Below, piece after piece: positions 2,392 through 49,160 of a DNA stretch of 49,319 nt. Position 1 is the stretch's first letter, and the number at the start of each line of letters is the position of its first letter. The translations under genes and the position numbers were made by a program. The notes under the pieces were generated by a model, which was not told the DNA's origin, ran no database searches, and worked only from the letters and a program-made list of their open reading frames with translations. The DNA comes from a virus, in the IMG/VR virus record IMGVR_UViG_3300046747_000644, positions 1-49,319 of that record, one strand, 5' to 3'.

Positions 2392-2999
2392 CCCGCATCG
2401 ACGAGATCCGGGCCCGGCTCGACCGTCTCGCGACGGCGCGCCAGCACGAGCCGTCGGACGTCGACGACCTCGTGGAGGACGTGCAGTACCTGCTCGCGTC
2501 GCCGGCGGACCTCCTGCGCGCCGATCCCATCCTCGCGGCCCGCGTCCTGGACCAGCACCGGCTCGCCGTCCGATCCGGCCACCGCGTCCGCGTCGCGGCG
2601 CCCTTCGGGGCGGTCCTCGGCGGGATCTACCCGCTGCCCGACGGCTGGGCGTGGTGGGTCCACTGGCGCGCGGCGGAGGGCGACCAGCCCCGCGGTGCCG
2701 CTCCCCGGGAGCAGGACGCATGGTCGCTGCTGGTGGCGGCGTTGGAGTGTCGGGAGTGGACGGTGGTCGACCCCGGCGCGCCGCTCGCCGAGCACGAGCA
2801 GCACCTGGTGGACTCGCTCCTTAAGCCCGAGGTGCGGCTCTCTCTCCAGCAGCAGATCGACGTCCTGACCGCCGAGCTGCAGGCGGCGCGGGCCTCCAGC
2901 GCCGAGTGGGAGGAGTCTGCGGCGATGGCCTGCGAGGCGCCTCCAGCCGGGTGCGTGTGCCCCGGGTGCTCGCTCGCGCGTGAGCGGGGGACGCCATGA
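2388..2999 (+). CDS. Hypothetical protein, 203 aa, with C-terminal Cys motif
   Basis: GTG 2388 overlaps the previous stop. The N-terminus is helical and charged (TRIDEIRARLDRLATARQ). The middle contains a Trp-rich segment (residues about 85-95). The C-terminal third is a likely coiled coil (about 145-180) ending in CEAPPAGCVCPGCS, a CxxxxxxCxCxxC arrangement that may bind zinc. Function unknown. Coupled to the next gene by an ATGA overlap. Confidence 0.65.
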   Translation: MTRIDEIRARLDRLATARQHEPSDVDDLVEDVQYLLASPADLLRADPILAARVLDQHRLAVRSGHRVRVAAPFGAVLGGIYPLPDGWAWWVHWRAAEGDQPRGAAPREQDAWSLLVAALECREWTVVDPGAPLAEHEQHLVDSLLKPEVRLSLQQQIDVLTAELQAARASSAEWEESAAMACEAPPAGCVCPGCSLARERGTP

Positions 3000-3199
3000 G
3001 CGCCCTCCCCGACTTCCTTCCCCTCGACCCGCTCGAGGAGGCCCGGTGGGAGCTCCAGGAGGCGACGGCCCGCCTGCACCAGGCGCGGGTGGTGCGCGCT
3101 CAGGCCGTGCTCGACGCCGAGCGCGCGGAACTCGAGCACGAGGAGGCGCTGACGGCGTGGGGACGGATCCGGGACGGGCGTTCGGGGAGGGGGACGTGA
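2996..3199 (+). CDS. Small coiled-coil protein, 67 aa
   Basis: ATG 2996 overlaps the preceding stop (ATGA). From residue 11 on the protein is almost entirely helical with Ala/Glu/Arg repeats (EEARWELQEATARLHQ), as expected for a coiled coil. Its stop overlaps the GTG of the Mom-like gene, so it is translated immediately before it. A partner role is possible from position but not shown. Phage mom operons can carry a small translation regulator (Com in Mu), but this protein lacks Com's zinc-finger cysteines. Confidence 0.6.
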   Translation: MSALPDFLPLDPLEEARWELQEATARLHQARVVRAQAVLDAERAELEHEEALTAWGRIRDGRSGRGT

Positions 3200-3987
3200 G
3201 GCCCGACCTGTGCCAACGCTGGCGCGTCGGTCGCGAGAGCTACCGGCCAGCGCGGGAGCCGATCGATCCGGCCCGGTTCGCGGTCGACGAGGTCACCGAG
3301 AAGGTCGCCAAGGCGTTCGTCGTCGAGCACCACTACTCGGGCAGCTACCCCGCAGCGCGCGTCCGCGTCGGCCTGTTCCGGGGCTGTGACCTCGTCGGGG
3401 TGGCGGTGTTCGCCGAGCCCGCGCAGCGCGCGACGATCCCCAGGTACGCCCCGGGCGCCAGCGACGGGGTCGTCTTGGCCCGCTTCGTCCTCCTGGACGA
3501 GGTCGAGGCCAACGCCGAGACGTGGTTCCTGGCGCGAGCGTTCCGCGGCCTGGGCGGGCTCGACGCCGTCGTCAGCTACTCCGACCCCGTCCGCCGCACG
3601 GCCTCGGACGGTCGCGTGGTGCTGCCCGGGCACGTCGGCACGATCTACCAGGCCTTCAACGGCCGGTACCTCGGTCGCTCCCGCGCTGAGCTCCTCCACC
3701 TCGGCCCCGACGGTCGCGTCGTCTCGCGGAGGGGGCTCTCGAAGCTCCGGAACGACGAGCGCGGAGCCGACGGCGTCTACCGCGCGCTGCTGGCGCTCGG
3801 CGCGCCGGCGCGCCGGCCGCTCGAGGACGGCCCCGCGTACGTCGCCCGGGCGCTCGCTGAGGGGCCGTTCCGTCGGCTGAGGCACCCGGGCAACCACGTG
3901 TACGCGTGGCCGCTGCGGCGCGGCGTCGTGATCGCCCCGAGCGCGGGCTCGTACCCGAAGCACGACCTGTTCGGGAGCCCCGCATGA
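3196..3987 (+). CDS. Mom-like DNA adenine modification protein (GNAT-fold), 263 aa
   Basis: GTG 3196 overlaps the previous stop; upstream sequence in the same frame belongs to another gene. The core resembles phage Mu Mom-family proteins: HHYSGSYP (residues 45-52) followed by a strand describing a self-product (VGLFRG..LVGVAVF), then RFVLLDEVEANAETWFL, VSYSDP (126-131) and GHVGTIYQAFNGRYLGRS (145-162). Mom proteins have an acetyltransferase-like fold and convert adenine in phage DNA to N6-carbamoylmethyladenine, which blocks many restriction enzymes. The protein is a little longer than Mu Mom, with an extra C-terminal domain (about 190-263). Neighbours are small unknown genes. A Dam-like gene is present at 39924-41159; Mu mom transcription depends on Dam methylation, but such a link here is only inference. 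Enzyme chemistry is inferred. Confidence 0.72.
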   Translation: MRPDLCQRWRVGRESYRPAREPIDPARFAVDEVTEKVAKAFVVEHHYSGSYPAARVRVGLFRGCDLVGVAVFAEPAQRATIPRYAPGASDGVVLARFVLLDEVEANAETWFLARAFRGLGGLDAVVSYSDPVRRTASDGRVVLPGHVGTIYQAFNGRYLGRSRAELLHLGPDGRVVSRRGLSKLRNDERGADGVYRALLALGAPARRPLEDGPAYVARALAEGPFRRLRHPGNHVYAWPLRRGVVIAPSAGSYPKHDLFGSPA

Positions 3988-4121
3988 TCCCCCTGCAAGG
4001 CGTCATCCTCTTCCTCGCTCCCCTCGACGACCACGCCGAGGTCGCGCGCGGGTGGTCCGTGCAGCGGGCCGACGCGTGGGCCAAGCGGCAGGGCTGGGCG
4101 CTGGTCGGGGAGTACCCATGA
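3984..4121 (+). CDS. Small hypothetical protein, 45 aa
   Basis: ATG 3984 overlaps the stop of the Mom-like gene (ATGA) and its own stop overlaps the next ATG. The N-terminus is a hydrophobic stretch (IPLQGVILFLAPL), too short for a confident membrane helix. The tail AKRQGWALVGEYP resembles segments in the next gene (RDQGWALIEDTP), suggesting a shared small motif. Function unknown. Confidence 0.55.
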   Translation: MIPLQGVILFLAPLDDHAEVARGWSVQRADAWAKRQGWALVGEYP

Positions 4122-4702
4122 TCCCGCCCCGCACCCGCGAAGAGATCCTGGCCGTCTTCGCGGACCTCGCGGAGGAGGATCCGACGGTGCTGCGAGACCT
4201 GCTCCTGCGGGTCGCGCGGTGGGAGCGGCAGCCGCCCGCCACCCGCGTGGCGGGGCCGTGGCACCAGACGGACAGCGGAGCCTGGGTTCGGATGAGCGTG
4301 CAGATCGGCGTTTCGACTCGGCTCGTCTCGATCGTGCGTCCGTTCCCCGAAGCGTCCCCGGAAGGCTGGGCCGTGACAGCCAACAGCACGGTGCTCAGTC
4401 GTACTCGCGAAACCGCCGAGGAGGGCCGAGCCGCCGCGGACGCTCTGTGCCGCGATCAGGGCTGGGCGCTGATCGAGGACACACCGCCCGCCGTGGAGGA
4501 GCCCACCGGCTGCACCCACTTCGAGGGACAGCCCTGCGCCGCCTGGACCCTCGAGGGCGCCTGTCGGCACGTCGACCGGGCGCACTGGCGGGCCGAGCCC
4601 GCTCTGCCCTCCGCCCCCATCTGCACCTGCACCGGCCCCGCCCGCGACGCACACGACCCGCAGTGCCCGGTCCGGATCGCCCACCCCAGGAGGACGCCAT
4701 GA
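4118..4702 (+). CDS. Hypothetical protein with C-terminal Cys/His cluster, 194 aa
   Basis: ATG 4118 overlaps the previous stop. Residues about 1-35 are helical (REEILAVFADLAEEDPTVLRDLL). The middle carries the motif DALCRDQGWALIEDTP, echoing the preceding small protein. The last 65 residues hold a Cys/His-rich region (CTHFEGQPC, ACRHVDRAHW, CTCTGPARDAHDPQC) that looks like a zinc-binding module. No family recognised. Coupled to the next gene by ATGA. Confidence 0.65.
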   Translation: MIPPRTREEILAVFADLAEEDPTVLRDLLLRVARWERQPPATRVAGPWHQTDSGAWVRMSVQIGVSTRLVSIVRPFPEASPEGWAVTANSTVLSRTRETAEEGRAAADALCRDQGWALIEDTPPAVEEPTGCTHFEGQPCAAWTLEGACRHVDRAHWRAEPALPSAPICTCTGPARDAHDPQCPVRIAHPRRTP

Positions 4703-5196
4703 CCCGCGCCGGCCGAGCCACCGTGCTGCTCGAATCCGACCCGTGGGACCGGGAGCAGGTCGAGCCCACGTACACCGCCCTCCGTCGCTGGACCTGGGAG
4801 CGGTTCAAGCGCCAGCCGGACGGACCGCCTCACCTGCGAGTCCTGCGCGACTGGCTGATCGAACAGGGGTGCGAGATCCCGGCGCTCGACCTCGCCTGCA
4901 TCGTCCGTGTGCTCCACCGTGAGCGGGTGCGGCCGAGCAAGCCCCGGAAGCTGCGGATGCCGGAGGATCCGCGCAGGCACCCCGTCTCGCCGTACGCAGG
5001 TCGTGGCTGGGCGTACAGCGATGGCCTCGATCAGATCGCCGCGTGCGGGGAGCGCTACCGGTTCCGGCTCTCCGAGGGCGACGTCGAGGGTGCCAAGGAG
5101 ATTCGCGCCTGGCGAACGATCTGGGTGCGGCGGGCATTGCATGCTCGCCGCCAGCGACGCGAATCCTGGCTGAACGAACTGGCGGTGCCGACATGA
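4699..5196 (+). CDS. Hypothetical basic protein, 165 aa
   Basis: ATG 4699 overlaps the previous stop; the upstream continuation of this frame is in another gene. The protein is basic, Arg/Trp-rich and mostly helical, with no membrane segment. The region RVLHRERVRPSKPRKLRMP (about residues 73-92) is strongly basic, compatible with nucleic-acid binding, but no HTH is clear. Function unknown. Confidence 0.6.
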   Translation: MTRAGRATVLLESDPWDREQVEPTYTALRRWTWERFKRQPDGPPHLRVLRDWLIEQGCEIPALDLACIVRVLHRERVRPSKPRKLRMPEDPRRHPVSPYAGRGWAYSDGLDQIAACGERYRFRLSEGDVEGAKEIRAWRTIWVRRALHARRQRRESWLNELAVPT

Positions 5197-5408
5197 TCGA
5201 CGCCCCCTCCAAGCAAGAGGCCCGCCGCCTCTGCGTGCTGCGCTGGGGCTGGGGCCGCTGGCTCCTGGAGCCCGCCCCCTACGGGCCCGGCGGCGAGATC
5301 CCGGACGAGCTCGACGAGGAGTCCGTGGCGAGGGGCCAGGCCCGGCACGAGGCGGTGACGAGGTGGGTGCGCGAGGGCGGGGATCTGCCGTGGGAGGAGT
5401 CGACGTGA
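5193..5408 (+). CDS. Small hypothetical protein, 71 aa
   Basis: ATG 5193 overlaps the preceding stop (ATGA), and the stop overlaps GTG 5405. The protein is Trp-rich (LRWGWGRWLLEP) with an acidic C-terminal half. No motif recognised. It sits two genes upstream of the integrase. Confidence 0.6.
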   Translation: MIDAPSKQEARRLCVLRWGWGRWLLEPAPYGPGGEIPDELDEESVARGQARHEAVTRWVREGGDLPWEEST

Positions 5409-5881
5409 CCCGCGACGACCAACTCGTCTACGCGGCGCGGCTCTCGGTGCGGGCGAACCTCTACGCGTCGCCAGAGACCCACGTCTCGGTCGAGGACGTC
5501 GCCTTCGCGCTCGGGCGCGACACCGACGAGGTGAGGCGATCCCGTCCCGCCTCGGCACGGCAACCTCGCGGCGGGCGTGCGATCGTGGCACCCTTCCGAG
5601 ACTGGCTGGAGGCGCTGGGCTATGGGCCGATCGAAGGTGGATCCGGACCGGGTCGTGATCGGGGATCTCTCGGCGATCCCCATGCGCGAGCGTGGGACGA
5701 CCCCGGAGGGGCGCCGGTACTGGCGGATCCGGGTGAAGGCCGGGAAGTCCGGCAAGACGCTGGCGACGGGCTGGTGGACGAGGGAGGAGGCGGAGGCAGC
5801 GGTCGAGGCCGCCCGCAGGACACCGAGACCCTCCGCGCCGTCCGGCCGCGCGGCCGCGGGAACCGTGGCCGATCTCCTTGA
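5405..5881 (+). CDS. HTH-like protein upstream of integrase; possible excisionase (tail overlaps integrase)
   Basis: GTG 5405 overlaps the previous stop. Residues about 5-45 (LVYAARLSVRANLYASPETHVSVEDVAFALGR) look like a helix-turn-helix. Being the gene directly before int, it is a candidate recombination directionality factor. Third-position GC is high up to about base 5635 and then collapses in this frame, just where the integrase frame starts, so the last 80 or so residues are probably not selected protein sequence. A one-base shift into the remaining frame would end the protein at 5658. This could be a natural overlap, a recent frameshift or a sequence error. Confidence 0.5.
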   Translation: MTRDDQLVYAARLSVRANLYASPETHVSVEDVAFALGRDTDEVRRSRPASARQPRGGRAIVAPFRDWLEALGYGPIEGGSGPGRDRGSLGDPHARAWDDPGGAPVLADPGEGREVRQDAGDGLVDEGGGGGSGRGRPQDTETLRAVRPRGRGNRGRSP

Positions 5882-6809
5882 TCGCTGGTCGAAGGTGCAG
5901 GTGCTGAGGCTCGAGGCCGGCGAGATCGCGCCCCGCACCCTCGGGAACTACCAGCGGACCGCCGGGCATTGGCTCTCGGCGTTGGGCGACGTCCGGGTCG
6001 AGCACCTGACGCGCGAGCTCGCCGAAGACACGATCCGCGGCTGGCGAACGGGAGAGACCGCGATCGCACCCAGAACCGCCGCGCTTGCCGCCGACGTGCT
6101 CGCCGCGGTCGTGGCCTGGGGCCACCCGCGAGGGCTCTGCCCGAACGTGGAGCTGGGCAACCTGCTCTCCGCCCAGGTCGACCCCGAAGAGCACGTCAAC
6201 TGCGAGTACACCCCGACGCGCACCGAGGTCGACGCGGTCCTGGCCGAGATGGACGCGGGTCGCGACCGGGTCCTCGTGGAGCTCTTGGCGCTGACCGGCG
6301 CCCGGATCGGCGAGGCGGTGGCGCTCCGGGTGGGCTCCTGGGATCCGGCGCGCGGCGAGCTTGCGATCAGCGGGCGCGACCGCAGCCGGGGCCGGCGCGG
6401 GAAGGTCCGCACGCGGCTGTGGCCGGTGTTCGGCCGACTCGGCGAGCTGCTCGAGGAGCTCACGGCCGATCGGGCCCCCGACGAGGTGCTCGTCCAGAAC
6501 CTGCCGGTCGAGGTGCCGAAGCAGGTCGCGGCGGCGATCGGCTACGCCGCCGAAACCCTCGACCAACCCAGGTTCACTGCGCACGGGATCCGGCGCATGG
6601 TGACGATGGAGCTGCTCGAGACCGCGAACGGCAACGCGAAGGCCGTTTCCCGGCTGACCGGACACTCGGTCGCGATCCTGCTCCGGGACTACATTCGCCC
6701 TACGGACGACCACCTCCGTTCGATCGTCCAGCGGTCGACCCGCCGGAAGGTCCCGCTTCGGATGGTTGCGGCACGGAACAGCGGCACAGGGGCCGAGGAG
6801 GAGGACTAG
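5622..6809 (+). CDS. int: Tyrosine-recombinase integrase, 395 aa
   Basis: The protein has the full tyrosine-recombinase catalytic set: R228 (TGARIGEAVAL), H321-x-x-R324 (HGIRR), H348 (LTGHS) and nucleophile Y357 (RDYIRP). The N-terminal arm-binding domain is about residues 20-75 (RRYWRIRVKAGKSGKT), and the core-binding SAM-like domain about 85-190. ATG 5622 is chosen over GTG 5577 because GGAGG lies nine bases upstream and coding bias begins there. It integrates the phage circle into the host chromosome at att sites. It is the last gene of the long early operon and is followed by lower-GC DNA, where attP would be expected. Length is usual for the family. Confidence 0.93.
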   Translation: MGRSKVDPDRVVIGDLSAIPMRERGTTPEGRRYWRIRVKAGKSGKTLATGWWTREEAEAAVEAARRTPRPSAPSGRAAAGTVADLLDRWSKVQVLRLEAGEIAPRTLGNYQRTAGHWLSALGDVRVEHLTRELAEDTIRGWRTGETAIAPRTAALAADVLAAVVAWGHPRGLCPNVELGNLLSAQVDPEEHVNCEYTPTRTEVDAVLAEMDAGRDRVLVELLALTGARIGEAVALRVGSWDPARGELAISGRDRSRGRRGKVRTRLWPVFGRLGELLEELTADRAPDEVLVQNLPVEVPKQVAAAIGYAAETLDQPRFTAHGIRRMVTMELLETANGNAKAVSRLTGHSVAILLRDYIRPTDDHLRSIVQRSTRRKVPLRMVAARNSGTGAEEED

Positions 6810-37636: not shown

Positions 37637-38541
37637 GTCGCCATCCTCTCGGCGCGCCCCGCCACCTTCTCGGCGACCTGGCGCGCCTGCTCGGGGTCGT
37701 CGAACTTCCTGGCCTGGTCGGGCCGGTGGACCCAGCGGAAGGGGTTCACGCCGTTCGCGGCCGCGCAGTACATCGAGCCCCCGACCCCACCGCGGACGAC
37801 CCAGGGGGCCGCGTGCTCGGCCCTCGCTCGGGGTGCCCGAGCCACGCCAGCCGTCTCCGGCTCCGACCCGAACAGCACGCCCTGACCCTCGGGGGCCTTC
37901 GCCGCGGGCTTCTTGCGCCCGATCCCGCGCTGCCAGTCGATCCACTGTCCGACGGTGGGCGTCTTCGGTGGCCGCCGCTCCTCGGGTGCGGCCGTGTACG
38001 CCTCGTGGATGAGCCGGATCAGCAGGTGCGCCGTGGCCATCGCGTCCGTGGTCGCCCGGTGCCCGTCGAGCGGGATCCGCCGCCGCTCGCAAGCCGCATC
38101 GAGCTTGGCGGACTCCTCGGGCCAGAGCCGGCCGAGGATCTTGGCGGTGTCGACCCACTCGATCGAGGGCCGGACCGGCGTCGCCTCGGAGTGCATGAAC
38201 CGTCGGTCGAACGGGCAGTTGTGCCCCGCCAGCACCACACCCGGGTCAGAGAGGATGGGTCCCACCTGCTCCCAGAGCTGGATCCACGTGGGCGCGCCCA
38301 CCACGTCCCGCACGTCGAGCTTGTGGATCGGGGTCCCCGCCCACGGGCTCGGTACGCCAGGGTCGATGAGCGACGAGAACAGCAGCCGGGGTTCCGACCG
38401 ATCCCGGACGAGCAGCTCGTCGATCCGGACGATCGAGATCTCGACGAGCCCGTCCGTCTTGGAGCTGAACCCCGTCGTCTCCGTGTCGAGGAGCAGCAGC
38501 GTCGAGCCCCGGAGCGGGCGGTCGAGGAGTGCCGGCGTCAT
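37633..38541 (-). CDS. DnaQ-like 3'-5' exonuclease (DEDDh), 302 aa
   Basis: ATG 38541. DEDDh motifs: LLDTETTGF (D19, E21), GHNCPFDRRF (Exo II, Asp in CPFD) and HRATTDAMAT (Exo III H and D, about 160-170). The exonuclease domain occupies the first 180 residues; the rest is an Ala/Arg/Pro-rich linker and a C-terminal segment (SMYCAAANGVNPFRWVHRPDQARKF) of unknown role. In phages such proteins proofread or process DNA ends. No polymerase is encoded nearby. Confidence 0.85.
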   Translation of the reverse strand: MTPALLDRPLRGSTLLLLDTETTGFSSKTDGLVEISIVRIDELLVRDRSEPRLLFSSLIDPGVPSPWAGTPIHKLDVRDVVGAPTWIQLWEQVGPILSDPGVVLAGHNCPFDRRFMHSEATPVRPSIEWVDTAKILGRLWPEESAKLDAACERRRIPLDGHRATTDAMATAHLLIRLIHEAYTAAPEERRPPKTPTVGQWIDWQRGIGRKKPAAKAPEGQGVLFGSEPETAGVARAPRARAEHAAPWVVRGGVGGSMYCAAANGVNPFRWVHRPDQARKFDDPEQARQVAEKVAGRAERMAT

Positions 38542-39182
38542 GCGGCCCTCGCCGTGACGGAGGCGGCCATGCTGACGAGCAACTCGGCGAACGCGGGAGG
38601 CGTGAGCGCAGCCTCACGCCTCCCCATCAGCTCGATCCCGTGGGCTTCCCGGAGGGCCCGAGTCCGACTCGGGCCCGGACCGCTCGACACGTACACCTTC
38701 CGGCCGAGGCGCGGCGTACAGAGGTAGGCCGCCTGCCGACCCGTGGAGCGCCGCGCCTCGGGGAGCTCGCGACACCCGACAGCGACGAGCCAGGTCCGCT
38801 TGCGGGCCCGGTGGCCCCAACAGCGTTGATCGACAGTCGCGACCCACTCGTCAGGCCGCAGGATCGTGGAGGACCAGCAGCCGGGCTCGGGGCGTCGGAT
38901 CCCGTGACGCTCCCACGCGAACGAGCCCTCGGGGTGCTCGAGAACCCCACCCCACCGACGGAGCGACTCGATCGCCGAAGCGAAGCATCCCTCGTCGGCC
39001 CCGGGCACCTCCGACCCGTCCGACCACCAGAACCGACCCCAGCGGGCACAGGGTGGGTGGTAGACGCCAGGATTCGGGCCCGGGTAGAGGCGCGCGTCGC
39101 GCGCCTCGTCCCACCAGTCGGCGACGAGGCGCGGGTAGGGGCCATCCCGCATCACGAACAGCGCCGAGACGGTGTCGATCAC
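38538..39182 (-). CDS. Trp-rich hypothetical phage protein, 214 aa
   Basis: GTG 39182 overlaps the upstream gene. The central part (GCFASAIESLRRWGGVLEHPEGSFAW...VDQRCWGHRARKRTWLVAVG) matches a family I have seen in other phages but cannot name; function is unknown there too. No catalytic motif is obvious. It lies between RecU and the exonuclease in the replication/recombination cluster. Confidence 0.65.
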   Translation of the reverse strand: MIDTVSALFVMRDGPYPRLVADWWDEARDARLYPGPNPGVYHPPCARWGRFWWSDGSEVPGADEGCFASAIESLRRWGGVLEHPEGSFAWERHGIRRPEPGCWSSTILRPDEWVATVDQRCWGHRARKRTWLVAVGCRELPEARRSTGRQAAYLCTPRLGRKVYVSSGPGPSRTRALREAHGIELMGRREAALTPPAFAELLVSMAASVTARAA

Positions 39183-39721
39183 GCGCCCTCCAACGCCGAC
39201 AGCCAGTCCCCGGGCCGCTCCATCGGCCGGGGCGACTGCCCCGCGAAGTCGCCCGCCACGACCGACGCCGTCCCTGGCTTGGCTTGCTCCCGCCGAGTCG
39301 CCCAGGCCCACCACCGGGGCCCGAGCCAGCTCCAGGGCACGACCCAGCCCTGACCCTGGAGACGCAGCGCCAGGAACGCGTACCCACCCACAGCCGACCA
39401 CTCCTCGAGATCCCGCGCCTGGTGCTCGGCGAGGTGCTCGAACTTCCACCGGACGTCGGCGCAGTCCTTCGCGTCGAAGGCGACGGCCCGGGCCGTGGAC
39501 AGCCTGGACGGCCCGAACCCCGCGACCACACCCGCGTAGTCGGGAGGGCCGAGACCGAGGAACTGCCCCCGGAAGATCCCGTCCGTGACCCGGGAGAGCA
39601 CGCGGACCGGTGGCGGCGTCCGGTGGATCAAGGCGCGCCCCTCGAGCCGATATCTGTCGTGCCAGAAATCGAGCAGAAGCTCCCAATCTCTGCCGCGGTT
39701 CGCGTGGCTGGCGTTCCTCAT
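39179..39721 (-). CDS. recU: Holliday junction resolvase, RecU-like, 180 aa
   Basis: ATG 39721. RecU hallmarks: NRGRDWELLLDFWHDRY at the start, PPDYAGVVAGF, then AVAFDAKDC (catalytic Asp/Lys strand) and RWKFEHLAEHQARDLEEW, ending in VPWSWL. RecU-type nucleases resolve four-way junctions before packaging. Length is typical. Coupled to the genes on both sides. Confidence 0.85.
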   Translation of the reverse strand: MRNASHANRGRDWELLLDFWHDRYRLEGRALIHRTPPPVRVLSRVTDGIFRGQFLGLGPPDYAGVVAGFGPSRLSTARAVAFDAKDCADVRWKFEHLAEHQARDLEEWSAVGGYAFLALRLQGQGWVVPWSWLGPRWWAWATRREQAKPGTASVVAGDFAGQSPRPMERPGDWLSALEGA

Positions 39722-39927
39722 CGGAGAGCCTCCGCGACCGTCGGCTGTCCGTGGAGGAGCACCACCCGCTCCTCCCAGTCGAGCGCGTGCAGCGTCCGGG
39801 CGATGACGACCACGTTGACGCCGAGCGCCCTCCCGATCTCGACCGCCGACGCGCCGCGCCCCGGGCTCTCCCCCTCGCGAGCGGACAGGAGCCCGATCAC
39901 CCGGTCGGAGAGGTCGGCGCGGATCAT
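39718..39927 (-). CDS. Small winged-helix-like protein, 69 aa
   Basis: ATG 39927 overlaps the Dam-gene stop. Residues 4-50 (LSDRVIGLLSAREGESPGRGASAVEIGRALGVNVVVIARTLHALDWEERV) have the pattern of a winged helix of the MarR/ArsR type. It may regulate the recombination cluster. Confidence 0.6.
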   Translation of the reverse strand: MIRADLSDRVIGLLSAREGESPGRGASAVEIGRALGVNVVVIARTLHALDWEERVVLLHGQPTVAEALR

Positions 39928-41159
39928 CCCGTCACCGTGACGATCGTGCCGAGGTCGCCGAACGCCTCGCGGAACGCGCTCGGACGGTTCCCGAAGTACA
40001 GGACGATCTGGGCGTGGCGCGGGCTGGTGCCGGGCTCGTTGTTCTCGTCGACGAACTGGATGCGCCCGCGGATCAGGCAGATCAGGCCACCCGGCCGGAA
40101 CAGCGCCTGCTGCCACTGCGTGTCGGTCGCGACGTTCAGGAGCACCATCGCCTCGGTGACGTTCCCGGCGTCGAGCTCCTGGAGGAGCTTGCTGGTGAAC
40201 TGCTCGACGAGCGGGTGGCTGTACGGAGGCTGCAGCCAGACCTGGCCGCGCCAGGTGTACCCGAGGCCGTCGCGCTCGGCGGTGTAGTAGGTGGTCGCGC
40301 CGATCCGCGCCTGCGCCGCCTCGTTCGTCGCCGGGTCGAGGTCGATCGCCCCCCCGAACGCGGCCTTGACGCGCTCGATGATGTCGTCCGGGGTGCTCCA
40401 CGAGTCCGGATCGACCGGTCGCGGCGCCGAGGGCGTGGGAGTAGGTGGCGCTGCGCCAGGCCGAGCGACGATCAGCGCCTCGTCGCTATCATCGTCCTCG
40501 ATGCCCTCATCGAGCGCCGCGAGGTGACCGGCTGCCTCGGGCTCCAGGTCGGCCGGCGCGGTCCCGCCGACCAGGCTCCCCCACCCCTGCTGTTCGAGCT
40601 GCTCGGCGACAGTCGGCGCGGGCTTCGGTCGCACCTCCGCCGCTGCCGCCGAGACCGAGACCTCTCCGGCCTGGACCTTCGCGAGAAGTTCGGGCGAGCG
40701 CTCGAGCACGACGCGAGCGTCTCGGACGCTCCGCTCGCTGACACCCAACAGCTTCGCCGCCTCGGCCTGGGTCGGGACCCCGGCAAACTTGCCTGGGTCG
40801 TGTCCGGACCCGTCCGATGGGCGCCCTGCGAGCCGTGCCGCGATGGCTGCACGCTGGCTCGTCGTCAGGTGCCTGCGGTGCAGGTTCTTGGACAAGATCC
40901 AGGCAACCAGATCCTCCTCGTCGCCCTCCCACTCCCTGAACTCGGGGTCGACCGCGGCGAGCGCGCAGGCGGCAAGCCGGTTGCGCCCGTCGACGACGAG
41001 TCCCATGAACCGGACGATCGGTTCTTGGAGCCCGTTCTCATCAATGTCGATCGCGAGCGCAGTTAGCTCCTGCTCGTCCAGCAGCGGGAACCAAGCGGCG
41101 ACCGGGTGGATGAGGTAGCCGTGGAGCAGCTCGTAGTCGGTGCTCTGGGCGGCGCTCAC
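39924..41159 (-). CDS. ParB-like domain fused to Dam-family DNA adenine methyltransferase, 411 aa
   Basis: GTG 41159. Residues 5-110 are a ParB/Srx-type domain (PLLDEQELTALAIDIDENGLQEPIV, VDGRNRLAACAL, KNLHRRHLT), followed by a small HTH (TQAEAAKLLGVSERSVRDAR, about 130-150) and an acidic linker. Residues 250-411 are a phage Dam-type N6-adenine methyltransferase: SWSTPDDIIERV, AIDLDPATN, VWLQPPYS (Q310-P-P-Y313) and SPRHAQIVLYFG. QPPY replaces the more usual NPPY, a variant also expected in phages. It would methylate phage DNA; sequence specificity unknown. Confidence 0.82.
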   Translation of the reverse strand: MSAAQSTDYELLHGYLIHPVAAWFPLLDEQELTALAIDIDENGLQEPIVRFMGLVVDGRNRLAACALAAVDPEFREWEGDEEDLVAWILSKNLHRRHLTTSQRAAIAARLAGRPSDGSGHDPGKFAGVPTQAEAAKLLGVSERSVRDARVVLERSPELLAKVQAGEVSVSAAAAEVRPKPAPTVAEQLEQQGWGSLVGGTAPADLEPEAAGHLAALDEGIEDDDSDEALIVARPGAAPPTPTPSAPRPVDPDSWSTPDDIIERVKAAFGGAIDLDPATNEAAQARIGATTYYTAERDGLGYTWRGQVWLQPPYSHPLVEQFTSKLLQELDAGNVTEAMVLLNVATDTQWQQALFRPGGLICLIRGRIQFVDENNEPGTSPRHAQIVLYFGNRPSAFREAFGDLGTIVTVTG

Positions 41160-44420: not shown

Positions 44421-44626
44421 CCGCCCGCGACTGGTGCGGGATCACGCTCTGGGGGATCTGCGCCCTCGTGGGGCTGCGGGCGCTTCACCGGGTACTCCCG
44501 CCCGACGTGTGGGAGGGGCTCCTCCTGGTCGGGGTGCTGCTGGCCCTCGTCGTCGCAGCGGCCTTCGCGCCGGAGATCGACTCGGGTGAAGCGCCCCCGG
44601 TCGACGACGTGGTCGTGACGCCGTGA
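44417..44626 (+). CDS. Small two-helix membrane protein, 69 aa
   Basis: TTG 44417 overlaps the previous stop. Two hydrophobic segments (ITLWGICALVGLRAL; LLLVGVLLALVVAAAF) separated by a short loop, then an acidic C-terminal tail. Holin-like in shape, but the location in the early operon argues against lysis. Unknown. Confidence 0.55.
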   Translation: MTARDWCGITLWGICALVGLRALHRVLPPDVWEGLLLVGVLLALVVAAAFAPEIDSGEAPPVDDVVVTP

Positions 44627-44859
44627 GCCGCCCCCTGCGGATCGGTGACCGCGTTCGTCTCGTCGGCCACCCCGAGACCGTTGGCGTCGTGATCCACTCG
44701 ACCCGGCACGGCATGGTCGTTCTCTGGGACGACGACGCCTCCGAGAACGTGGTGACGCCCTCCGGGTACGCGCACGGAGAGCCGTTCGTCGAGCGCACCG
44801 GGCGCGTGTGGTCTCGGCACCGGACCCGTCAGCGCGAGCGCACGGCGGTGGTTCCGTGA
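44623..44859 (+). CDS. SH3/KOW-like small protein, 78 aa
   Basis: GTG 44623 overlaps the previous stop. PLRIGDRVRLVGHPETVGVVIHSTRHGMVVLWDDDASENVVTP has the alternation of a small SH3-like barrel. The C-terminus is basic (RHRTRQRERT). Similar in kind to 31724-31918. Function unknown. Confidence 0.6.
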   Translation: MSRPLRIGDRVRLVGHPETVGVVIHSTRHGMVVLWDDDASENVVTPSGYAHGEPFVERTGRVWSRHRTRQRERTAVVP

Positions 44860-45092
44860 GCCCGGGGTTCCGCGAGGAGCTCGAAGCGCTTCGAGACGGC
44901 GGGCCCGTCGACGAGGAGGCGCTCCGGCGGGTGGCCCTCGCGGCCCTCGCCTACGCCCCGCCCGACGAGCTGATCGACGCGGTGGGCCGCAGGTGGGGCC
45001 TCGGCGGGACCGGTGCCCGGCTCGTGCTGGTCGACCTCAACGACCGCGAGATCGAGGACCTGACCCCGGACGAAGGCTGGAGGCGCCAGTGA
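44856..45092 (+). CDS. Hypothetical protein, 78 aa
   Basis: GTG 44856 overlaps the previous stop. Helical and acidic (FREELEALRDGGPVDEEALRRVALAALAYAPPDELIDAVGRR), then DLNDREIEDLTPDEGW. No family recognised. It ends at a GTGA overlap with a tiny ORF. Confidence 0.55.
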   Translation: MSPGFREELEALRDGGPVDEEALRRVALAALAYAPPDELIDAVGRRWGLGGTGARLVLVDLNDREIEDLTPDEGWRRQ

Positions 45093-45145
45093 GCCGCCGG
45101 TCGTTGGCGCAGTGGATCGAACGTTTGAACCTGGAGATCACATGA
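45089..45145 (+). CDS. Possible 18-aa leader peptide before ERF gene
   Basis: GTG 45089 with GGAGG upstream gives SRRSLAQWIERLNLEIT and stops at 45145, overlapping the ERF ATG (ATGA). Its codons include a short ribosome site (GGAG) for the ERF start. It fits the coupled pattern of the operon but may simply be the leader of erf. Existence as a protein is uncertain. Confidence 0.35.
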   Translation: MSRRSLAQWIERLNLEIT

Positions 45146-45936
45146 GCGAGCCCTTGACGACCAGCCCGCTGTCGGCCGCTCTCGCGGCGGCCCAGGCGGA
45201 GCTGTCCGACCCGATCCGCGCCAAGACGATGGCGGTGCCCGGCCGCCCCTCGCGTGCGTACGCCGGCCTCGACGACCTCCTCCAGGCCGTGCGCCCGGTG
45301 CTCGCGCGCCACGGGATCGCGGTCTCGCAGGTGATCCGCCCGTTCGGCGAGGGTTCCTGGGCGCTGGAGACGCAGCTCCGCCACGCGAGCGGTGAGGTGC
45401 TGACCTCGCACTACCCGCTCGACTGGAAGGGCGGCCCCCAGGATCAGGGGTCGCGCCTGACCTACGCGCGCCGGTACTCGCTCGAGGCGATCTGCGCCGT
45501 CGCGGCGACCGAGGACGACGACGCCGAGACGCCCCAGCGGACGCAGGCGAAGCCGTCGAAGCCCAAGCCCCCGCCCCCCTCCTCGCCGACGTCGGGCGGA
45601 GTGTCGCCCGAGAGCCCGCGGACCAGGACGGGCGGCGGGACGGCGAGCGAGGGGGGTCAGGAGAGCCAGTCGAGCCAGGGCGCCAAGACGCCGGCGCGCT
45701 GGACCGAGAGCGAGCAGCGGTCCTTCTTCGGCGACCTCTCCCGGATCTGGCCCGAGGGTCCGGACCACTACGATCACCTCGCCGCCTGGTGCGAGGCCCA
45801 CGGCCACCCGCGGCCCTCCGTGATGACGTCGGCCCGGCGTGGGAAGCTGCTCGCCGCGCTCGAGTCCGTCGACAAGCAGACCGAGATCCTCGAGTGGCAG
45901 CCCGAGGCCACCGAGCAGCCGCAGGCCGACGCATGA
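45142..45936 (+). CDS. erf: ERF-family single-strand annealing protein, 264 aa
   Basis: ATG 45142 has GGAG upstream. The ERF core is residues 10-125: YAGLDDLLQAVRPVLARHGIAVSQVI, the TQLRHASGEVLTSHYPLDWK strand, and QGSRLTYARRYSLEAICAVAATEDDDA. ERF proteins form rings that anneal complementary single strands, supporting phage recombination and circularisation. A Pro/Ser-rich linker and a C-terminal region (YDHLAAWCEAHGHPRP) follow. Works alongside the RecU-like resolvase at 39.2 kb. Confidence 0.9.
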   Translation: MSEPLTTSPLSAALAAAQAELSDPIRAKTMAVPGRPSRAYAGLDDLLQAVRPVLARHGIAVSQVIRPFGEGSWALETQLRHASGEVLTSHYPLDWKGGPQDQGSRLTYARRYSLEAICAVAATEDDDAETPQRTQAKPSKPKPPPPSSPTSGGVSPESPRTRTGGGTASEGGQESQSSQGAKTPARWTESEQRSFFGDLSRIWPEGPDHYDHLAAWCEAHGHPRPSVMTSARRGKLLAALESVDKQTEILEWQPEATEQPQADA

Positions 45937-46193
45937 GCATCGAGACCGACATGGAGCTCGACAGGCTCCACGCCCTCGACCTCGCCCCGTGGGTGGCTCC
46001 GGTCCCCGCGATCGAGGAGCCCAGGGCCGCCGCGTCCACGACGGAGACGGTGACCGAGGCCGCCTGGCGCGAGCTCGCGCATGCGCGCGGCGCCTACATC
46101 GAAGCCCTCCGCAAGCGGCTGCGGATCGTGCCCGTGGCCCGGCGGGTGTTCGCGGCGGAGCAGTCGCTCCGACAACTCGGATGCTCGCCGTGA
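45933..46193 (+). CDS. Hypothetical protein, 86 aa
   Basis: ATG 45933 overlaps the ERF stop. The C-terminal half is helical and basic (RGAYIEALRKRLRIVPVARRVFAAEQSLRQL). Position after ERF suggests a recombination accessory role, but there is no motif to support it. Confidence 0.55.
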   Translation: MSIETDMELDRLHALDLAPWVAPVPAIEEPRAAASTTETVTEAAWRELAHARGAYIEALRKRLRIVPVARRVFAAEQSLRQLGCSP

Positions 46194-48109
46194 GCCTCGC
46201 CGACGCCGAGGAGCACGCGCCCAGCACCGGGCGCGACGGGCCCGCCCCCGCCGAGGGGTCGTGGGACAAGAAGCGCGCCGAGCGCAAGGCCGAGGCGGAC
46301 CGGAAGGCGGCCGAGCGCCGCAAGGCCGTGCTCGACCGGATCCCGGCCGGAGGGATCACCCGGGCGCGGCTGACCGCGAAGCTCGTTCAGGCGCTCGGCT
46401 CCTCCTGGCAGGCGGGCGTCGGCGCCGTGCTCCAGGAGCTATTCGTCGACAGCGAAGCGCACGAGATCGAGGGCGCGGTGTTCCGGGGGCCAGCGCCGGT
46501 CCAGGTCCCCGCGGCGCCCTCCACCCCGGCCTCGTCGGCCACCGCCAGTGTCGAGGCCCGCGCGCGGGTGATGGCCCTCGCTCGGACGCAGAGCTGGTGG
46601 TTCCGGCGCCAGCTCCTGTCGAACTGCACCACGTCTCCGATCTGGGACGTGGCGCGGGCGATCACGGAGCTCCTCGCCGAGGGCGAGCTCGAGGAGTTGG
46701 ATGGCAGCCGGATCCGGGTGCGCCCGGTCCCGGCGACGTCGACGGTGGGTACGCCTGCTCCGTCGACCAGCGTGGGGGCATCGTCCCCCGTCGGGGGCGA
46801 TACTAGTTCTTCCCTCGACTCTGGTGCGACGGCAGAGCGCGAGCCGTCTGCAGATGCTGCTCTCGTCCCCGAGCCCAGCTCGGCGCGGGAGTCCGGGGCC
46901 TCCGAGCCCCGGGCGGAGGAGACCCCGGCCCGTCGGCCGGTCCCCCGCGAAGATCCCGACGGCGTGAACGCGGGCGCGCTTCCCGCGGCCGAGGACCAGG
47001 CCGGTTCAGCCGACCTGGTGGTGACGGGCGGCGCCGCCCCCTCGGACCCTGTCGCCAGGATCCGAGCCCTGCCTCGTCCGGCGTCGCTCGCCGGGCCCGA
47101 CCTGCGAGCCTGGCGAACCCGGCACGAGATCTCCATGCGAGACCTCGCCTCAGCGCTCCAGCTCCCCGGACGCACCTCGGACTCGGTCGCCTCGTCGATC
47201 TCGGCCTACGAGCGTCGAGCCGGGTACGGCCACAAGCCGACGCTGGAGGCGCTGGAGGCGCTGTTCGGATCTGACCCTGTTGCGGGCGCCCCCGAGCCCG
47301 CGCAGCCCTCCCCGCCGGCCCCGGCGGTGGAGTCCTCGATCGAGGAGCCGGCGTCTACGTCGGTGGCGGAGTCGGAGCCCGCCGTCGTTTCCCCGGCGGA
47401 CCCCGACCAGGAGGCCCGCGGCCGGACGGTCGCCGCGGGGGCCGCGCCAACGGCCGGTGCACCTGACGCCCCCTCCGAACAGCAGGTCCCCGACGCGCAG
47501 CGGCCCGGAGTTACGACCCGGTACGGTGACCCGCTCGAGGCCGGGGGTCCACTCGGCGAGCACGCGGCCGAGCCTGCGCAAACGAGCCCGGTGGAGCGGG
47601 AGACCGTCTCCACCGCGGCGGATTCGTCGCCCCCTCCCGTCCATGGCGCGTCCTCGCTCGTGGGGGAGCGGGAGGGCGGCGACTTCGCTTCTGGCCCGGC
47701 CTCTCGCCTCCCTGACTTGAGCAACGAGGGGCCGGGCTCTGCGGAGGACGAGGTCGACGAGCACCCGGTGCCGTCCGACCTGTTGGACGAGCTCGTCGAC
47801 CTGCGGCTGCGGCTCGAGGTCGCGGAACGGCAGATCGCCGGGTACCGGGCCGAGCGCGAAGCTCCAGGGGATCGGCTGGTCCTGGTCCCGGTCGACGAGC
47901 TCGCCGACCTCGAGGCCCGGGCAGCGCGAGCCGACCGGGCTGAGGCTGAGCTTGTCGAGGCGCGCCGGTTCGGTGCGGCCACCGAGCGCCTGCTCGACCG
48001 GGCGGAGTCGCTGCATGTGCGGCGCGACGACGACCGCTGGATCAGGTTGGGCGCGCTCGGGAACGTGATCGACCGGCTCGTGGTGCGGGCCAACAAGGAG
48101 GCGAAGTGA
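46190..48109 (+). CDS. Large multi-domain HTH protein, 639 aa
   Basis: GTG 46190 overlaps the previous stop; ATG 46181 three codons upstream is an alternative. N-terminal basic coiled coil (KKRAERKAEADRKAAERRKA) followed by two winged-helix-like modules (about 45-85 and 120-170). A disordered linker is followed by an XRE-like HTH (RAWRTRHEISMRDLASALQL...ISAYERRAGYG, about 305-345), a second very long disordered Pro/Ala/Ser/Glu region, and a C-terminal coiled coil (LLDELVDLRLRLEVAERQI). Unusual for its size among genes averaging 80 codons. A DNA-bridging or replication-initiation role is possible; not recognised. Confidence 0.65.
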   Translation: MSLADAEEHAPSTGRDGPAPAEGSWDKKRAERKAEADRKAAERRKAVLDRIPAGGITRARLTAKLVQALGSSWQAGVGAVLQELFVDSEAHEIEGAVFRGPAPVQVPAAPSTPASSATASVEARARVMALARTQSWWFRRQLLSNCTTSPIWDVARAITELLAEGELEELDGSRIRVRPVPATSTVGTPAPSTSVGASSPVGGDTSSSLDSGATAEREPSADAALVPEPSSARESGASEPRAEETPARRPVPREDPDGVNAGALPAAEDQAGSADLVVTGGAAPSDPVARIRALPRPASLAGPDLRAWRTRHEISMRDLASALQLPGRTSDSVASSISAYERRAGYGHKPTLEALEALFGSDPVAGAPEPAQPSPPAPAVESSIEEPASTSVAESEPAVVSPADPDQEARGRTVAAGAAPTAGAPDAPSEQQVPDAQRPGVTTRYGDPLEAGGPLGEHAAEPAQTSPVERETVSTAADSSPPPVHGASSLVGEREGGDFASGPASRLPDLSNEGPGSAEDEVDEHPVPSDLLDELVDLRLRLEVAERQIAGYRAEREAPGDRLVLVPVDELADLEARAARADRAEAELVEARRFGAATERLLDRAESLHVRRDDDRWIRLGALGNVIDRLVVRANKEAK

Positions 48110-48366
48110 GCGACGACACCGGCTTCGACGCGGCCCCGGCCAGGTACATGGCCAGCGGACGCGAGGCGATCGATGTGATCCGCGAGGAGCTCGGCGACGC
48201 GGGGTTCATCGCGTTCTGCATCGGGAACGCGCGGAAGTACGAGCTCCGGGCCGGACACAAGGGCCCGGCCGAAGTCGACCTCGAAAAAGCGCGCTGGTAC
48301 CGCGAGATGGCCGCCTACGTGCTGGGGTCCGGCCCGGACCCGCGTTCATACCGGGGTGGCCGGTGA
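48106..48366 (+). CDS. DUF3310-like protein, 86 aa
   Basis: GTG 48106 overlaps the previous stop. The pattern YMASGREAIDVIREELGDAGFIAFCIGNARKYELRAGHKGPAEVDLEKARWY is diagnostic of DUF3310 (SaV-like), small phage proteins often found with nucleotide-metabolism genes; the function of the family is not firmly known. Directly before the ThyX-like gene. Confidence 0.8.
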   Translation: MSDDTGFDAAPARYMASGREAIDVIREELGDAGFIAFCIGNARKYELRAGHKGPAEVDLEKARWYREMAAYVLGSGPDPRSYRGGR

Positions 48367-49160
48367 CCTACGAAGCCAGGATCCTGGCGGACAGCGTCTC
48401 CCCGGTCGGCGTGCGGTTGACGTCGTTCCTCGTGCGCTTCCCTAGGTTCATCCTCGCGGAGGTCAACACCCACCGGATGCTCTCGAGGAACTTCGAGAGC
48501 TCCCGCGCGGTCCCGGTGGCGAAGCGGATCGAGGCCGTTCGGGCGAACCCGTTCGTGCCCGAGGCGTTCGGCTCGGCCCGGAAGGGCATGCAGGCCGGCG
48601 GGCCGCTCGAGGGCCAAGAGCGGGATCGGGCACTCGACGCCTGGATGGACGCCTGCCGGGACGCGCTCAACGCCGCCGAACGCCTCGCCGCGCTCGGCGT
48701 CCACAAACAGCTCGCGAACCGTGTTCTGGAGCCGTTCAGCTTCGTAAGCGGGATCATCACAGCGACCGAGTGGGACAACTTCTTCGCGCTCCGGTTGCAC
48801 CCCGACGCACAGCCCGAGTTCCAGCGCCTCGCCCGCCTGATGCGCGACGCGATGGATCGGTCGCTGCCGGCCCGCCTCGGCTACGGCGAGTGGCACCTGC
48901 CGTTCGGTGAGGATGGCGACTGGCGGGTGTCTGCAGGGCGCTGCGCCCGGGTCTCGTACCTGACGCATGACGGCGTGCGCGACCCCGATGCCGACACCGC
49001 GCTGACCTTCCGTCTCATCGCGTCGGGACACATGAGCCCGCTCGAGCACCCGGCGACCCCGCAGCCAGACGAGACCCTGTTCTACGGCAACTTCCGCGGG
49101 TGGAAGCAGGCCAGGAAGTTCGTGCCCAACGAGGCGGTGTTTCGGGGAGGTGCCGCATGA
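48363..49160 (+). CDS. thyX: ThyX-like flavin-dependent thymidylate synthase, 265 aa
   Basis: GTG 48363 overlaps the previous stop. The ThyX signature RHRxxSxNExSxR appears as THRMLSRNFESSR (36-48): the first Arg is Thr and the Glu is Phe, while H37, R38, S41, N43, S46 and R48 are kept. The C-terminal part (GRCARVSYLTHDG, ASGHMSPLEHPAT, FYGNFRGWKQARKFV) matches the ThyX fold. ThyX makes dTMP from dUMP with FAD and methylene-tetrahydrofolate. The altered signature means true activity, or a related reaction on another pyrimidine, must be tested. Followed directly by the HD phosphohydrolase. Confidence 0.78.
   Translation: MTYEARILADSVSPVGVRLTSFLVRFPRFILAEVNTHRMLSRNFESSRAVPVAKRIEAVRANPFVPEAFGSARKGMQAGGPLEGQERDRALDAWMDACRDALNAAERLAALGVHKQLANRVLEPFSFVSGIITATEWDNFFALRLHPDAQPEFQRLARLMRDAMDRSLPARLGYGEWHLPFGEDGDWRVSAGRCARVSYLTHDGVRDPDADTALTFRLIASGHMSPLEHPATPQPDETLFYGNFRGWKQARKFVPNEAVFRGGAA

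Follow-up and report, generated by a model that had tools for sequence, protein, structure and literature searches.

The window analysed here is the whole of a 49,319-base IMG/VR virus record (~71% GC), near the left end of which lies a mom-like gene (Table 1). The stop/start overlap (GTGA) between mom and the small gene directly upstream suggests translational coupling. This 67-residue product has zero cysteines and is not Com-like in appearance, and no Com-like translational regulator was recognised adjoining mom in the window. The same small gene also immediately precedes mom in a sister phage (L002/G001), whose Mom is 95% identical by alignment and whose mom lies inside a 2.4-kb block that is 97% identical to window positions 2974-5397. 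Comparison of the two genes gives a dN/dS of ~0.32, and mom is under purifying selection; this value, together with a match to the Mom family PF25680 in each of the 106 aligned members, marks the frame as a real gene. The record also encodes a terminase, portal, head protease and major head protein, and its tyrosine integrase supports a temperate phage, in keeping with the initial annotation, which placed a Mom-like gene in a temperate phage of high GC. A megablast search of window positions 1-25000 against phage records returned zero matches, and neither the small genes downstream of mom nor most nearby open reading frames have a family match. On the sister contig, sequence resembling window positions 44505-47688 passes straight into sequence resembling 1031-1983, which indicates that the two ends of the window probably adjoin each other on the genome of the phage and that the record is near complete.

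Table 1. Genes, motifs and insertions in the window; fractions refer to the 106 aligned relatives
Feature	Position	Strand	Remarks
67-aa gene directly upstream of mom	2996..3199	+	TGA stop overlaps mom start
Ribosome binding site, GGAGG-type	3184..3190	+	~5 nt ahead of the mom GTG; read from sequence
mom-like gene	3196..3987	+	263 aa, GTG start
H46-Y47-S48 motif	3331..3339	+	Mu H58-Y59-S60; H46 and Y47 in 105/106
R96	3481..3483	+	Mu R111; 106/106
T109	3520..3522	+	Mu S124 site; Ser in 69, Thr in 37 of 106
D130	3583..3585	+	Mu D149; 106/106
Long-form linker/hairpin, residues 131-144	3586..3627	+	14 aa, against 3 aa in Mu and short Moms
GHVGTIYQAFN core, residues 145-155	3628..3660	+	Y151 is Mu Y159
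Second long-form insertion, residues ~191-222	3766..3861	+	two predicted helices
YPK motif, C-terminal	3952..3960	+	common to the last residues of Mu Mom
Tyrosine integrase	5622-6809	+	
phrog_12600 protein	38538-39182	-	
RecU-like Holliday junction resolvase	39179-39721	-	PF03838, E 1.8e-10
Dam-like gene	39924-41159	-	PF05869, E 1.3e-16; ParB-like N-terminal part fused to Dam-type domain
ThyX-like gene	48363-49160	+	PF02511, E 4.5e-17

The protein matches Pfam PF25680 (Mom) with an E-value of 1.3e-19 and 71.2 bits, against a cut-off of 27.1, and PHROG 1384 (phrog_1384, 'Mom-like DNA modification protein') with an E-value of 7.4e-22 and 79 bits. Searched against PDB sequences, the profile of its relatives gives a single match, 8bv8 ('Methylcarbamoylase mom', E 2.4e-26), aligned over 238 profile positions and reaching the final residue; an alignment profile is needed for this match, a single-sequence phmmer search of the PDB having found nothing. 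A chance likeness is excluded by the scores against both family models, taken with the 8bv8 profile match. The three motifs picked out initially as standing in Mom order are indeed present, HHYSGSYP (residues 45-52), VSYSDP (126-131) and GHVGTIYQAFNGRY (145-158) following one another in the same order as their Mu Mom equivalents KHYSRR, QSFADE and GRAGVVYQASNFDF. The protein is a genuine, apparently intact member of the Mom family, itself already known, and belongs to the long form described below.

The AlphaFold2 model, made with the family alignment (pLDDT 95.2, pTM 0.89), predicts the fold of Mu Mom with a GNAT-like core. In a Foldseek comparison with the PDB, 8bv8_A ranks first (E 3.5e-10, TM 0.67 by target length) and GNAT acetyltransferases come next, bearing out the GNAT fold expected in the initial annotation, whilst a search of viral models places the Mom of Salmonella phage FSL SP-031 at the top (E 3.6e-15, TMt 0.80). 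Residues H46, Y47, R96, D130 and Y151 are retained in 105-106 of the 106 members. The 8bv8 entry is titled 'phage Mu protein Mom inactive mutant S124A' and carries Ala at S124, the site occupied here by T109. From this title and their conservation, the conserved residues are probably catalytic.

The extra length of the protein had been ascribed to a C-terminal extension; homology with Mu Mom, however, reaches the final residues, and the additional sequence is accounted for by two internal insertions. The first, modelled with high confidence as a hairpin of short strands, sets the spacing from D130 to G145 at 13 residues or more (mostly 14) in 81 of the 106 relatives, compared with 3 in the 25 short forms and Mu. 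The second lies within the interval from G173 to Y236, which spans ~62 residues in long forms and 32-47 in short forms. Several positions are nearly invariant within the long form (R134, G139, R8, K183 and H230 at 99%, W9 at 98%), where short forms have gaps or other residues, and an N-terminal QRW is common to long forms. In a quick tree with the insertion columns removed, many inner branches of which are weakly supported, the long forms make up one group (SH-aLRT 98), and two changes of form are needed, one of them being L014 (MT836715), a member of the long clade that is without the hairpin. The two internal insertions define a Mom subfamily, a single large 'long Mom' clade found in phages and in genomes of many phyla. 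Positioned beside D130, the hairpin bearing R134 and G139 would most likely adjust the binding of DNA or of the donor.

The initial annotation held that few phages carry Mom. However, tblastn matches 129 INPHARED phage records, an alignment scan of IMG/VR finds at least 315 relatives (11 close loci were found by a single-sequence scan) and 62 relatives are found in contigs of bacterial or archaeal genomes, so that Mom is not rare. These genomes are from Myxococcota, Streptomyces and other Actinomycetota, Pseudomonadota, Planctomycetota, Acidobacteriota, Chloroflexota and others. This breadth points to Mom-type protection as a widespread means of counter-defence and not a peculiarity of Mu.

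At some of these loci, other genes recur beside mom. A C5-methyltransferase lies within 6.5 kb of mom in 13 of 70 non-redundant long-form loci, on the same strand in all 13. In four of the 13 (L026, L031, L050 and L065) it overlaps the start of mom by 4 bases, as it does at a fifth locus (L059), which suggests a co-translated modification pair. Upstream of mom the sister phage carries DUF5131 together with a C5-methyltransferase-like gene; at this place the window has ~1 kb of other genes. PF00145 occurs in 16 of 35 records and DUF5131 in 13 of 35, counts taken from mom-bearing records alone, and the enrichment of these genes near long-form mom is suggestive only. In six loci (L116, L120, L122, L129, L134 and L041), mostly from Streptomyces or other actinobacteria, the gene directly downstream of mom is PAPS-reductase-like by sequence resemblance, with no Pfam match.

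Mu Mom modifies the adenines of phage DNA and so protects this DNA from cleavage by bacterial restriction enzymes; the modification is a methylcarbamoyl group, giving N6-carbamoylmethyl adenine. To our knowledge, few complex adenine modifications have been described, that of Mom among them, and Mu Mom is the one such enzyme with a solved structure. We favour, with a probability of roughly three in four, the reading that the window protein is a stand-alone, GNAT-related enzyme of the Mom family that modifies the adenine N6 of the phage's own DNA against host restriction, the chemistry being inferred. Such an enzyme would work, probably at a late stage of infection, on DNA of the phage itself and would add a small acyl-derived group to N6 of adenine; its product would be the Mu modification, N6-carbamoylmethyl adenine, and the packaged genome would thereby resist host restriction endonucleases.

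The features particular to the long form bear on how far the comparison with Mu can be taken. With an arginine hairpin next to the conserved aspartate and a threonine at the Mu S124 site, the enzyme could use another donor, make another product or recognise another target sequence than Mu Mom. It is nevertheless unlikely that the protein, though a DNA adenine modifier of the Mom family, departs from Mu in donor group or sequence specificity owing to its insertions, namely the arginine hairpin, the two added helices towards the C terminus and the N-terminal QRW: the strict conservation of the added residues suggests that they have a function, and the long form persists as one clade across phages and genomes of many phyla, but the core residues are unchanged relative to Mu, the insertions may simply stabilise the fold or a dimer, and L014 does without the hairpin. 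A proposal framed for the clade as a whole is tentative and rather doubtful, namely that long-form Moms are a functionally distinct type of enzyme, directed by the arginine hairpin and helices to a different donor group or DNA target and, in some phages, partnered with the adjoining C5-cytosine methyltransferase so that two bases would be modified together. The GNAT fold serves many substrates, and a Mom-like GNAT that has decayed or taken on another role and lost its activity on DNA, such as a protein or small-molecule acetyltransferase, could in principle share it; this we regard as very improbable, given that the family-wide residues are all intact, that the gene is constrained and that Mom is matched far more closely than other GNATs, in sequence as well as in fold.

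The initial annotation also drew attention to a Dam-like methyltransferase and an altered ThyX as possible contributors to base modification. Both genes are present, but their link to base modification by Mom is not upheld by co-occurrence. Among 34 long-Mom virus records, which may be fragments, Dam occurs in three (the sister included) and ThyX in two, and the sister phage, despite its nearly identical mom, has no ThyX match in what may be an incomplete record; co-inheritance of ThyX or Dam with mom was thus tested and not found. The ThyX-like protein appears circularly permuted with respect to cellular ThyX, although of the two stretches that align one does so weakly. Its C-terminal segment GRCARVSY...SPLEH has a weak alignment with the N-terminal region of 6j61, and the RHR motif takes the form NTHRMLSRNFESSR. 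The form described initially as 'altered' is the permuted one characteristic of a phage family that is very common, with 1,022 phage records, of which 1,001 match across 80% or more of the length. A multi-base modification system combining Mom with the Dam-like and ThyX-like enzymes, although all three genes share one record, is hardly credible in view of these counts, of the general occurrence of this ThyX family in phages and of the distances from mom as the record is written (~36 kb to the Dam-like gene and ~45 kb to the ThyX-like gene, the latter perhaps ~3-4 kb if the ends join).

Two further observations concern methyltransferase-like genes in the window. The Dam-type domain has QPPY instead of the usual D/NPPY motif, as is likewise the case in L159 and L162. 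The phrog_12600 protein carries HPPC, EHP and Q..GHRARKRTWLV motifs reminiscent of C5-cytosine methyltransferases; among its relatives, one is annotated 'putative DNA methylase', and others fall within genes that bear an N6-adenine methyltransferase or ParB-like annotation.

Several known systems can be compared with the window mom, among them Mu Mom (NP_050657.1; PDB 8bv8). Mu Mom and the window protein share a fold and the ordered motifs HYS, R111, N121-x-E123-S124, D149, GxxYQAxN and YPK (Mu numbering). However, Mu Mom is 24% identical to the window protein, has 3 residues between D149 and G153 in place of 14, carries R154 where all 106 aligned relatives have His, and has neither the two-helix insertion nor the QRW at the N terminus. 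In the Mu-type operon the mom promoter is under Dam-dependent control, and com, which overlaps mom from upstream, has no recognised counterpart upstream of mom in the window. In jumbo phages, Mom domains are fused to restriction-type endonucleases (PMC7824862). These fusions have the Mom domain in common with the window protein, and similar folds appear among its viral structure matches, but the window mom is single-domain with no recognisable nuclease attached. The short-form Moms of Salmonella phages VSiP and FSL SP-031 and of Halogranum virus HGTV-1 share PF25680/phrog_1384 and the core residues, but differ in their short linker and short C-terminal region, are 26-34% identical and fall outside the long-form clade. 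Nearer in sequence are the long-form Moms found in IMG/VR phages and in the genomes of Myxococcota, Streptomyces and Pseudomonadota (e.g. L002-L012 and L097-L129), which share both insertions and the signature residues at ~40-96% identity. At several of these loci a C5-cytosine methyltransferase, DUF5131 or PAPS-reductase-like gene adjoins mom, whereas neither PF00145 nor DUF5131 was found in the window. The long-form clade, with its consistent extra elements, offers natural variants with which the donor choice and sequence specificity of Mom enzymes can be tested.
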